Shown here: positions 7,213 to 25,055 of the stretch, one piece after another
Numbering within the stretch: the first letter of the stretch is position 1
Layout of the letters: each line of letters opens with the position of its first letter
Source of the DNA: a virus
IMG/VR virus record: IMGVR_UViG_3300031651_000019
Span: 1 to 25,668 of that record
Length of the DNA stretch: 25,668 nucleotides
Strand: one strand, 5' to 3'
Position numbers and translations under genes: made by a program
Notes under the pieces: model-generated
The model's input: the letters and a program-made list of their open reading frames with translations, nothing else
The model's database searches: none
What the model was told of the DNA's origin: nothing

Positions 7213-9879
7213 TTATATTTTATAGCTTAATGGTCCCCGTTCGTCATATACGCTGCGCTTATTCACATTCAGCGCCACCGCGTCCAGCCTCGCCTTCCAG
7301 CTCAGTATCGCCGCCATGGCCAGGTCAATTTTATTGGCACTGTCTCCCCGCTCCTTATGTATCACCCACAGGCGCTTCCCCTGCTCGTCCCGCTTATTAA
7401 GCTCCTGCTTAAAAGCATTCCCGATATGCCTCTCCAGCCCCTTGTGGTTTTCATGACTCAATTCCTGGCTCTTTATCGCCGTGCCGAAGGCCTCTATCGC
7501 ATAGCACATCTGGTTGTACCGGTTCGTGTACCATTCGACGACCCTCTCCTTGCCGTATAGACCCGCCCACTGCGCGGTATAGGAAAGCCAGTATTGAGGG
7601 TCCGCGTAGAGCCGCCAGACATCGTAATTCTCGAAAGCGGCTACCACCGCCTCTTCAATTTCCTCCACCGGCGCCTGCCAGTCCTTCTTCCCGTAAGGGC
7701 ATTCCCAGAGTCCCAGGACGAACTGGTATCCCGTCTCGATTTCCGTCCCCACCAGACCCACCGAATCGTGGAACATGGCGCCGTCAAACCCCAGCGTAAT
7801 CAGTGCCCTGTCTTTTACCCGGTAGTTTTTCTTGGCCAGCGGCTTCCACTCTTCGATATCAAAGGCTTTCTGTGAAGCCTTCACCAGCCGGTTGCAATAC
7901 ACCCGGTCGAAAAAAGTCATGTCGGTCGTAGGGTCCTGAGACAGAGCGACAATCGCGTCGATATCCCGCCATGATGCCGCCATTCCGGAGGCCTCTATCA
8001 CCGCCGCCCTGATGTCTTTCACGGCATTCAGCGGATGCTCATCCGATGCCTGACGGTGATAATAAAAGAACCGGGTATCCTTTATACGTCCCTCTTTCAC
8101 TTCCCGGGCGTATTCCATGGCGCTTTCCGCGACGCTCCCCGCCCCCGGCTCCGGCGCCGTCGTTATCTCAAGGTTCCATGGGTCGGCCTTTTTTCTCTTG
8201 GCCAGGTTGGCCACCATCGTCTGGTGGGCTCTTAATAAACGCGGTAATGTCCACCAGTGCGTATTATGGGTCGCTATCATCGCCTCCCCGGCCAAGAATA
8301 GATGTTCATCATTATCTACTGAAATGCATCTGACCGGGATTGTTTCAACCGCCTCAACCGCAATTATTGCCCGGCATTGGTATTGCCACTTGTGTTCAGT
8401 TATCTTGGCGCTTTTTCGATACAGCCGGAAAGGCATCATGTTCGGCTTACCTGTAAAATGCACTTTATAAATCGTACTCTCTTTTGCCCACCGCTTATCA
8501 ATTGAGGCACATTTTGGATGCGGTCGATAACCCAGCGTGCGCAGTAACTCAATTAAGCCATCGATAAGCCACTCACTGGTATTGACGAAAGTGCAAACAC
8601 CCTGTGGGCTTATGTACCCATCGGCATCCATAAGGCCTCGTAGCAATTCCAGACGCTGCTGTGTGCCAGCCCTGAGATAATCATCGGGAATATGTTTGTT
8701 TTCCAGCACTCCAATCTTGCGCAACTCTCCGACTACCGAGTGGTTAATCGGCTTGCCCTTCGTAGCCCCCCATCCGCTATAGCGGCTATCATTCATCGTT
8801 ATATAAATCAACGGCGCTCTGCCCCGTGCCGAACAACGCGTAACCCGGTAACCCAGCGCCTTGATATTCGCCTCGATTTCCTCAATATCCTGTTTGCCCG
8901 CGGTTATTGTCGCGTTCCTGGCGTCCCCGTCCCCCAGCCATAAACCCATCAAATAAGGCGCAACAGGAAGTTCCTTGTCCGGAAGCTCCAGCGGCCCGGA
9001 TTCTACAATCCTGAATCTGGAACTATGGGACCACTGGTGCTCATATAGGTATTCGGTTGCCACCGTGCGCTCGCATTTATAGCTCGGACTATGGTCATAA
9101 ACTGGCCACCCATGGTGGGCGTCCGCCACTATTCGAGAGCCATCGCCGAATTTAATAGCGTAACACTGCCTGTTATGATGAATAGGCCCCACTTCCCGCA
9201 CCTGCGCCGGATGGCCGTCTGCTCCAAACACGATATCCCCGGGATGGATATCCCCCATCGTCGTCCACCCGTCGGGCGTAGGGATGTGGGTATCCAGCGC
9301 CAGCGGCTCATCCATCGCGGAGAAGGTCGTCCTGGCGCCGTCACGGGCATTGGGAGATGAGGAAAGCGATACCACCTTCCCGTCTCCCCGCTTCCTCATG
9401 ATCCGCTCCAGACCGATGTCGAAGTCTTTGCCCAGGTCGCATTCTTCAAGTATGACCTTTATCGTACCGTAAAGGAGTTCATCGGACTGCTCTTCCGTAT
9501 ATGCCACCACCGGGATATAAGGGTCGTTGACCGGCCCCCCGATGGGGTTGCCATCCCTATCGAAACCCACACACCTCACCGGCGATTCAGGATGCAGCTC
9601 GCAGATCGCTATCCAGGCCGCCAACTCCGTCTTCGCCATCCCCTTCGCCAGGCTTATCCCTACCCTCTTGAACCGCCGCCGCCCCGCCACCCGGTGCCTT
9701 CGGGGATATACCTCGTACATCCGCCAGATAAGGCCCCGCTTATCATCATCGAGCTTCGCCGGCATGCCCCGCAGGTCGCCGGGCCCGAACACCAGATTCT
9801 CCTCGATGAAGTCACAGACCTGCCCCCCCAGCGAGGGGTACCACTTCCCCTTATCATCCGGTATCGTTAAGACGGACAT
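7213..9879 (-). CDS. terL: Terminase large subunit, interrupted by an in-frame intein
   Basis: 888 residues as encoded, 540 after removal of residues 192-539. The ATPase-nuclease that packages phage DNA. ATPase: Walker A-like GISLAKGMAKTELAAW at 74-89; Walker B TFSAMDE at 185-191, with catalytic Glu191 as the last residue before the intein. After splicing it continues THWWTLPRLLRAHQT. Nuclease (RuvC-like): Asp699 in ITLGFDGAMF, Asp760 in LYADPQYWLS and Asp852 in NKIDLAMAAILSW. It overlaps the methyltransferase gene by 13 bp and has no clear ribosome-binding site of its own, so translation is probably coupled. Without splicing the ATPase site would be split, so packaging should depend on intein removal. 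Confidence 0.95.
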   Translation of the reverse strand: MSVLTIPDDKGKWYPSLGGQVCDFIEENLVFGPGDLRGMPAKLDDDKRGLIWRMYEVYPRRHRVAGRRRFKRVGISLAKGMAKTELAAWIAICELHPESPVRCVGFDRDGNPIGGPVNDPYIPVVAYTEEQSDELLYGTIKVILEECDLGKDFDIGLERIMRKRGDGKVVSLSSSPNARDGARTTFSAMDEPLALDTHIPTPDGWTTMGDIHPGDIVFGADGHPAQVREVGPIHHNRQCYAIKFGDGSRIVADAHHGWPVYDHSPSYKCERTVATEYLYEHQWSHSSRFRIVESGPLELPDKELPVAPYLMGLWLGDGDARNATITAGKQDIEEIEANIKALGYRVTRCSARGRAPLIYITMNDSRYSGWGATKGKPINHSVVGELRKIGVLENKHIPDDYLRAGTQQRLELLRGLMDADGYISPQGVCTFVNTSEWLIDGLIELLRTLGYRPHPKCASIDKRWAKESTIYKVHFTGKPNMMPFRLYRKSAKITEHKWQYQCRAIIAVEAVETIPVRCISVDNDEHLFLAGEAMIATHNTHWWTLPRLLRAHQTMVANLAKRKKADPWNLEITTAPEPGAGSVAESAMEYAREVKEGRIKDTRFFYYHRQASDEHPLNAVKDIRAAVIEASGMAASWRDIDAIVALSQDPTTDMTFFDRVYCNRLVKASQKAFDIEEWKPLAKKNYRVKDRALITLGFDGAMFHDSVGLVGTEIETGYQFVLGLWECPYGKKDWQAPVEEIEEAVVAAFENYDVWRLYADPQYWLSYTAQWAGLYGKERVVEWYTNRYNQMCYAIEAFGTAIKSQELSHENHKGLERHIGNAFKQELNKRDEQGKRLWVIHKERGDSANKIDLAMAAILSWKARLDAVALNVNKRSVYDERGPLSYKI
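8263..9306 (-). mobile_element. Intein with LAGLIDADG homing endonuclease, class 3 features, inside terL
   Basis: Encodes residues 192-539 of the precursor (348 aa). The usual first Cys/Ser is absent: the intein starts Pro192-LALDTHIPTPDGWTTMGD, where LALDT is normally preceded by Cys. It ends THN with Thr540 as first residue of the C-extein. Instead of the standard TxxH in block B it has DAHHGW, with Trp258 two residues after the block B His. Cys518 in VRCISVD is at block F position 4. Thr537 is two residues before the final Asn539. This Trp-Cys-Thr set defines class 3 inteins, which use the block F Cys as first nucleophile. Two LAGLIDADG motifs are present: LMGLWLGDGDA (310-320) and LLRGLMDADGYI (412-423), with acidic residues kept, so the homing nuclease may be active. 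Confidence 0.9.
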
Positions 9880-24186: not shown

Positions 24187-24495
24187 TTATGGGTATATAA
24201 ATGCTCTCTTGAAGGATTCCCAGCAACGTATCAGCCAGCCGCCTGATTTTTGATTTGGTGAGGCCTGATGGGGGATTATTTGCTTACCACTATCTATTAT
24301 TGCTTTAGTGAATCCCTCAGGTAAAAAAAATTCACTGTATCTCTCATAAATGCGTAATATAACTTTTGGCGTTAGCTTTAACTTGCCTTTCTTCATTTTG
24401 TTATAATAGCCTCTAGAAATACCGATACTCTCAGCCATAGTAGCATCAGTCAATTTGCCTTTCTTCTGAATGATAATCACATTTCCGATATCCAT
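24187..24495 (-). CDS. Xre/CI-like repressor, leaderless mRNA
   Basis: 102 residues from ATG 24495. The helix-turn-helix is LTDATMAESIGISRGYYNKM, then KKGKLKLTPKVILRIYERYS; Y-Y-N-K-M-K-K-G-K is the recognition region of an Xre-type domain. The C-terminal ~40 residues are short, so no LexA-like peptidase is present. No ribosome-binding site precedes it: the -10 TATAAT ends six bases before the ATG, so the transcript starts at or next to it, as with lambda cI from PRM. It diverges from the Cro-like ORF at 24624. Role as lysogeny or early-region repressor is inferred. Confidence 0.75.
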   Translation of the reverse strand: MDIGNVIIIQKKGKLTDATMAESIGISRGYYNKMKKGKLKLTPKVILRIYERYSEFFLPEGFTKAIIDSGKQIIPHQASPNQKSGGWLIRCWESFKRAFIYP

Positions 24496-24501
24496 ATCAC
24501 A

Positions 24502-24530
24502 ATTATAATAATTACAGCGTCGTTTGTCAA
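24502..24530 (-). promoter_or_regulatory. Consensus promoter for the repressor gene
   Basis: TTGACA (24530-24525), exactly 17 bp, TATAAT (24507-24502) on the minus strand. The start ATG follows six bases after the -10 box, so the mRNA is leaderless. Confidence 0.85.
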
Positions 24531-24570
24531 TAGGTTTTGTATTAATTTTTACACAAATATTTATAATTAT

Positions 24571-24597
24571 TGCACAACCTACTATTGACACTGTGCA
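24571..24597. promoter_or_regulatory. Likely operator between the divergent promoters
   Basis: TGCACA (24571-24576) and TGTGCA (24592-24597) form an inverted repeat with a 15-bp spacer that encloses the -35 box of the rightward promoter. A further half-site TTACACAAA is at 24549-24557 and a weaker one (GTCACAT) at 24604-24610. A repressor dimer there would block rightward transcription. Confidence 0.55.
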
Positions 24598-24613
24598 TAT
24601 AATGTCACATAAT
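24585..24613 (+). promoter_or_regulatory. Rightward promoter of the switch
   Basis: TTGACA (24585-24590), 17 bp, CATAAT (24608-24613). A second TATAAT lies at 24598-24603 but has no spaced -35. The HTH ORF starts 10 bases after the -10 box without a ribosome-binding site. Confidence 0.65.
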
Positions 24614-24623
24614 TATATCTACT

Positions 24624-24722
24624 ATGGACTGGGGACAACTCAGTAAAATACTTAAAGAAAAGGGCATGTCTCAGGTTGAGCTAGCAAGTAGAACAGGGAT
24701 ATCCCAATCTCACATCTCATGA
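24624..24722 (+). pseudogene. Truncated Cro/CI-like HTH gene
   Basis: 32 codons: MDWGQLSKILKEKGMSQVEL then ASRTGISQSHIS, stop. This is the first three helices of an Xre-family domain up to the recognition helix, where a normal protein continues with R-x-E-x-G. The ORF ends exactly where a different sequence starts (the membrane ORF at 24719). It lacks helices 4-5 and any C-terminal domain, so it is most likely a remnant left by a deletion. Confidence 0.75.
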
Positions 24723-24781
24723 CGCTGGTGATACTGGGGTTTGCTTATCTGTTTGCCGACCGCTTCGGCTGCCTGCATTAG
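24719..24781 (+). CDS. 20-codon membrane-peptide ORF or gene fragment
   Basis: MTLVILGFAYLFADRFGCLH, overlapping the stop of the truncated HTH (ATGA). Single hydrophobic helix. V-I-L-G-F ... D-R recalls the tiny membrane peptide at 18539-18619, so it may be the 3' end of such a gene moved here by the same rearrangement. No ribosome-binding site of its own. Confidence 0.4.
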   Translation: MTLVILGFAYLFADRFGCLH

Positions 24782-24784
24782 AAG

Positions 24785-24829
24785 AAAAAAAGAATTCCCC
24801 CTCCCTCCGTAAAAGGAGAGAGGGGGAAT
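24785..24829 (-). terminator. Strong terminator after the lysis-like cassette
   Basis: ATTCCCCCTC-CTCC and GGAG-GAGGGGGAAT form a 14-pair stem with one mismatch and a six-base loop; on the minus strand it is followed by TTCTTTTTTTCTTC. It ends transcription of the cassette before the divergent switch. The plus side is less U-rich. Confidence 0.85.
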
Positions 24830-24848: not shown

Positions 24849-25055
24849 TTATTCTTCGTTGGTTTTCTTGGCGAAGTAATAGCCAAGTATGAAGCCTATT
24901 GACGTGGAGGCAATGCCGAGACCTGCGGCTACAAATTCAGCCTGCGCAGTAAGCGCCCCGTATACAGTGACAAAACAGGCTGTGACCGTGAATGACCCTC
25001 CAATACCCCAGGCCAAGTACCTCCGGGTTATTAGTTTGAATACCTCGTTATTCAT
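24849..25055 (-). CDS. Holin-like two-helix membrane protein
   Basis: 68 residues: short cytoplasmic start, helix 1 about 14-34 (GIGGSFTVTACFVTVYGALT), short loop, helix 2 about 42-61 (VAAGLGIASTSIGFILGYYF), basic/acidic tail AKKTNEE. Size, two helices and charged end suit a class II holin. AAGGAGGTATC precedes the ATG. It follows the 27-residue membrane peptide and precedes a terminator; the thiol-peptidase-like gene is two genes upstream. The lysis role is inferred from this and is not certain. Confidence 0.7.
   Translation of the reverse strand: MNNEVFKLITRRYLAWGIGGSFTVTACFVTVYGALTAQAEFVAAGLGIASTSIGFILGYYFAKKTNEE

Follow-up and report, generated by a model that had tools for sequence, protein, structure and literature searches.

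Near the right end of the viral DNA analysed here (hereafter the window: the entire linear IMG/VR virus record IMGVR_UViG_3300031651_000019, 25,668 bp), a complete leftward HTH gene and a rightward Xre-type ORF of 32 codons diverge from a common control region. This raises the question of whether the short ORF is the scar of a deletion, which regulator of a lysogeny switch was damaged by it and what lifestyle was left to the phage, which is of the HK97-type tailed kind judging from the portal, major head protein, protease and terminase recognised in the window. The best explanation as a whole, at a rough probability of 0.75, is that the locus represents the remains of the lysogeny arm of a temperate siphovirus, in a group of uncultured bacterial viruses, and that a deletion in this arm has removed a CI-like repressor and an integrase, giving rise to an obligately lytic phage.

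Loci compared

Five loci, all on linear fragments, were compared: that of the window, that of its close relative IMGVR_UViG_3300031643_000009 (G001; 96-100% identical), that of the relative IMGVR_UViG_3300031553_000219 (L016), which is more distant from the window than G001, that of a relative with a tyrosine integrase, IMGVR_UViG_3300031654_000019 (L018), and that of IMGVR_UViG_3300031651_000025 (L019), the flanking sequences of which are nearly the same as those of L016. Additional integrase relatives gave partial alignment matches (30-33%) and were left out. The search of genomes for the integrase yielded a single 46% match, in an archaeal MAG, which is uninformative on the host. The features of the window locus are listed in Table 1.

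Table 1. Coordinates of the control region, the truncated genes and the late-side border in the window
Feature	Position	Strand	Remarks
Leftward HTH gene (102 aa, start codon ATG at 24495), heading the early operon	24187..24495	-	Cro-like by position
Leftward early promoter, TTGACA-17-TATAAT	24502..24530	-	12/12 consensus
Putative operators	24525..24590	strandless	Exact 9-nt inverted pair CTATTGACA, 24525-24533 / 24582-24590
Rightward promoter of the lysogeny operon, TTGACA-17-CATAAT	24585..24613	+	11/12 consensus
32-codon stub of the putatively CI-like Xre repressor gene	24624..24722	+	HTH_3 match; aligns with the N-termini of the full-length Xre proteins of G001, L016 and L018
Deletion junction	24717..24719	strandless	TCA common to G001; microhomology limited to a few bases at most
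Truncated small single-pass membrane ORF (3' part retained), last in the lysogeny operon	24719..24781	+	In G001 the ORF has 37 codons, of which 16 onward are kept here
Hairpin terminator of the leftward late operon, bounding the region on the right	24794..24829	-	
Small membrane (holin-like) late gene, intact	24849..25055	-	94% identical to G001
Late gene common to the whole group, 165 aa	25165..25662	-	Marks the late side of the lysogeny cassette

A junction that breaks two genes

The product of the 32-codon ORF, MDWGQLSKILKEKGMSQVELASRTGISQSHIS, matches the HTH_3 profile with an E-value of 5.6e-7 and 29.9 bits (cut-off 23), but the match covers only profile positions 2-27 of 55. The second regulator of the switch is thus present as a stump, as an earlier note on this DNA had proposed, and its HTH_3 domain breaks off at the start of the recognition helix, the region where that note had placed the cut, so the stub should not work as an HTH protein. 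The ATGA at 24719-24722 combines the stop codon of the stub with the first codon of the next ORF (MTLVILGFAYLFADRFGCLH, followed by its stop codon), and the earlier description of an overlap with no gene in between holds. This second ORF is the tail of a small membrane ORF, the intact version of which comprises 37 aa in G001 (MMPEGCSGKVLFWFIMTLVILGFVYLFADRFGCLHYI); the window retains 20 codons and lacks the first 15. Small membrane ORFs of similar type occur at the same position in L016, L018 and L019. A 32-codon Xre-type ORF as a stable gene, the finding that would have spoken for an ordinary short gene, occurs in no relative.

G001 is collinear with the window up to 24255, with one mismatch in 1948 bases (99.95%), and its homology restarts exactly at window position 24717, where the earlier note had put the junction, and continues to the right end at 96%. 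Between these two points lie 461 bp in the window versus 2918 bp in G001. The latter segment encodes a leftward HTH protein whose N-terminus differs from that in the window, a complete Xre (120 aa), a TM2 protein (85 aa), a large serine integrase (505 aa) recognised by its PF00239, PF07508 and PF13408 domains (Resolvase, Recombinase and zinc ribbon), and the intact 37-aa small membrane ORF. Counted from the homologous Xre codon, approximately 2.46 kb of G001 is absent from the window, and a single junction breaks two genes, xre and the small membrane ORF. By this comparison the window carries a deletion of about 2.4-2.5 kb, and the proposal that a deletion had removed the lysogeny arm is borne out: the missing segment sought among the relatives is found in G001 with xre, the TM2 gene and the serine integrase. 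In agreement with the earlier remark that no integrase was in view, neither a PF00239 nor a PF00589 match is present in the 25.7-kb linear window record. An integrase might still lie in parts of the genome beyond this record, although a second recombinase was not found in the part of G001 that extends past the right end of the window, where other ORFs are located.

In G001 the integrase and the small membrane ORF are also separated by an array (locus L009 4465-4734) of approximately 9.6 tandem copies of a 28-bp unit with a higher-order period of 84 bp, possibly near attP.

The viral contigs matching the leftward HTH protein comprise G001 alone, which is matched through a shared tail, and an intact phage with the immunity allele of the window was found in neither viral contigs, genome contigs nor phage records, so the segment lost from the window's own lineage is deduced from relatives with a different immunity allele. 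No second contig with this junction was found, the exact pattern from the small ORF matching G001 only.

An assembly or chimera artefact, in which reads from two phages were merged at 24717, would fit a junction seen on a single contig and the unequal identity of the flanks to G001 (99.95% on the left and 96% on the right). Such a merger is nevertheless very unlikely, as the approximately three bases common at the junction fall far short of the overlap length of an assembler, both flanks are collinear with G001 and a scar of the same kind is found in L019, an independent contig from another metagenome. Mis-joined ends of a circularly permuted genome, suggested earlier, are likewise not needed given the collinearity of both flanks. 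Deletion by the serine integrase at an att site was also considered but is unsupported, the L019 scar containing the end of a tyrosine integrase instead.

The identity of the lost regulator

Both divergent promoters postulated in the earlier note are present, and a -35 box TTGACAAA occurs at the position of the leftward promoter in all five loci. The inverted CTATTGACA copies cover both -35 boxes, with a related copy at 24619-24629, and are putative operators. The part of the earlier description that does not stand is the naming of the repressor, which it had equated with the leftward HTH protein.

In G001, L016 and L018 the Xre gene is co-directional with and upstream of the integrase gene and divergent from the early operon. 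Its product comprises 116-120 aa in these intact relatives, with 44% identity between G001 and L016 over 104 residues. The leftward HTH gene, by contrast, occupies first or second place in the early (lytic) operon and is directed opposite to the integrase in G001 and L016. PHROG repressor families show strong matches to Xre and weak matches to the leftward HTH protein, which scores slightly below the cut-off against HTH_3 (E 2.2e-4). As Xre accompanies the integrase in the three intact relatives, and with the layout of temperate siphoviruses as the basis for the CI/Cro assignment (PMC3952083), position and conservation indicate that the lost Xre is CI-like and the surviving leftward HTH protein Cro-like, the two roles thus appearing inverted relative to the earlier naming.

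The opposite assignment would make the leftward HTH protein a repressor kept as a stand-alone superinfection-immunity gene, and the stub the remnant of its Cro-like partner. Small HTH proteins can serve as repressors, the gene is intact behind a perfect promoter, and under either naming the two genes diverge from a shared control region. This assignment is nonetheless unlikely, given that the gene is transcribed with the early genes, that the repressor families favour Xre and that L018 has Xre but, when read by eye, no similar HTH gene in the corresponding place. The superinfection immunity suggested earlier is accordingly unsupported, the regulator upstream of the integrase and matched by the repressor families being the one that was lost. 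With the identity of the lost regulator corrected, the immunity phenotype to be expected is the opposite one.

The -10 box of the leftward promoter is situated approximately 7 nt before the ATG (window 24493-24530), suggesting that the early mRNA is near-leaderless, with its predicted start at or near the ATG.

The intact lysogeny arm in the relatives

In L016, the integrase of which is 71% identical to that of G001, the late genes are followed by a terminator, the small membrane ORF, the integrase, membrane proteins, Xre, the divergent region and the early genes. The order in L018 is as in G001 and L016, with a tyrosine integrase. Xre is present in the three integrase carriers (3/3) and has been lost in both phages without an integrase (2/2). 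The late side is marked by the 165-aa late gene product, which is 98% identical to that of G001, 53% to that of L018 and 41% to those of L016 and L019; its holin-like neighbour matches a holin PHROG with an E-value of only 0.77.

Since L016 and L018 have the arm in the same position and order, the long form is, on this comparison, the ancestral state. The reverse, a short ancestral form to which G001-like phages added a repressor-integrase arm, could draw on the swapping of whole cassettes in the group, with serine and tyrosine integrases at the same place, yet it is extremely improbable: the short form contains fragments of two genes that the relatives have complete, namely half an HTH domain and a small ORF without its first 15 codons, and the long form occurs in three relatives of different depth.

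The order in G001, L016 and L018 matches the layout of temperate Streptococcus thermophilus siphoviruses (TP-J34, Sfi21 type), where the integrase-bearing lysogeny module is transcribed opposite to all other modules and lies beside the early side (PMC3952083). The host and gene families differ, however, and in the present group serine and tyrosine integrases alternate in one slot.

The tyrosine integrase of L018 (6817-7784) is split over two frames, indicating a frameshift or sequence error, and the region at approximately 7820-7860, which looks like the 3' end of a tRNA, is a possible attP.

Loss in a second phage

On either side of the locus, L019 and L016 share 99.6-99.8% identity. What is left of the arm in L019 is about 19 codons of xre, which run into the final codons of a tyrosine integrase, plus an intact small membrane ORF to which the xre start is fused in frame. 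Neither PF00239 nor PF00589 matches were found in the L019 record. As its endpoints differ from those of the window, the loss of xre and integrase in L019 is, by these sequences, independent, and the loss is recurrent.

The fusion in L019, the ATGA overlap in the window and the recurrence of the small ORF type in all five loci could also mean that the stub and the small ORF are retained as a translationally coupled unit for a membrane protein, such as a superinfection-exclusion peptide. That such a unit was kept is highly doubtful, however, as the membrane segment in the window is down to 20 residues after the loss of the first 15 codons, and the two scars place the small ORF differently (overlap in the window, fusion in L019).

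Exchange of the immunity cassette

The leftward HTH proteins of the window and G001 are 40% identical overall, with different N-terminal DNA-binding parts and an identical C-terminal tail (QKSGGWLIRCWESFKRAFIYP), and the exchange point is located inside the gene at 24255/24256 (window 24187-24260; G001 locus L009 7336-7404). In the L019/L016 pair, identity drops sharply inside the leftward HTH gene at about L019 7317-7329. It recovers near the late terminator in L019 (6851) and gradually to the right of the junction in the window (about 25250). From these drops and recoveries, it appears that the DNA-binding part of the cro-like gene is transferred jointly with the control region and the arm as one immunity cassette, which would be bordered by the cro-like gene on one side and the vicinity of the late terminator on the other.

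Both deleted phages, which make up two of the five members examined, carry an immunity cassette unlike that of their nearest intact twin. With two cases, a link between the swapped cassettes of stripped phages and defence escape is only suggestive. It may tentatively be proposed, at a probability well short of even, that the cassette is exchanged as a unit and that cassettes stripped of repressor and integrase arise repeatedly or are passed on, yielding lytic phages that escape prophage immunity. If true, stripped cassettes would turn temperate phages lytic and allow them to evade the immunity of resident prophages.

Predicted lifestyle and comparison with known phages

The proposed ancestral order would comprise the late genes, terminator, small membrane ORF, integrase, small membrane protein, xre, divergent promoters and operators, cro-like HTH gene and early genes. 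An illegitimate deletion of approximately 2.4-2.5 kb would have brought codon 32 of xre next to codon 16 of the small membrane ORF. Most of the repressor gene would have gone with it and, to judge by all the intact relatives, the entire integrase gene as well, and the early promoter, the putative operators and the cro-like gene would have been spared. With the repressor gene lost and the early promoter spared, the early operon would be transcribed constitutively and lysogeny would be neither set up nor kept, so that the phage is probably obligately lytic. It would have no immunity of its own; as the putative operators remain, a matching prophage repressor should still repress it in trans. The stub, the junction, the intact arm of the relatives, its polarity and the second loss in L019 can be read from the sequences themselves.

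Mycobacteriophage D29 is a natural lytic phage derived from a temperate L5-like parent by the loss of approximately 3.6 kb that ends on one side within the repressor gene and arose through illegitimate recombination, possibly via a 3-bp repeat; it retains functional integration genes (PMC5712189); its repressor gene has lost its 5' end (PMC6550527). The window similarly shows a loss of a few kb, an endpoint within the repressor gene that leaves a fragment and approximately three bases in common at the junction. Unlike in D29, the integrase is also gone and the repressor gene has lost its 3' part. The window is thus a further case of the known D29-like deletions, extended through the integrase.

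In phiTM42, a defence-escape recombinant of the Cluster A mycobacteriophages Trixie and RedRock, exchange of the immunity locus is combined with a deletion and repressor damage (PMC6550527). The window and L019 similarly combine a swapped cassette with repressor loss relative to their nearest intact twin; phiTM42, however, was selected in the laboratory and has a different immunity system (stoperators). Hypothetically, stripped phages may be selected by lysogens. Most known examples of temperate-to-lytic conversion by deletion come from isolates such as D29. Here two independent cases in a wild, uncultured group can be followed to the base, since each has a near-identical temperate twin for comparison, which makes it possible to test how often the switch occurs, where its borders lie and under what selection it takes place.

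An insert in the terminase gene

Elsewhere in the window, approximately 1.04 kb (8263-9302) of the large terminase gene (7213-9879; 888 aa) resembles an intein and is missing from the otherwise near-identical G001. The inserted part has further matches to other phage families, among them terminase profiles and an endonuclease family.
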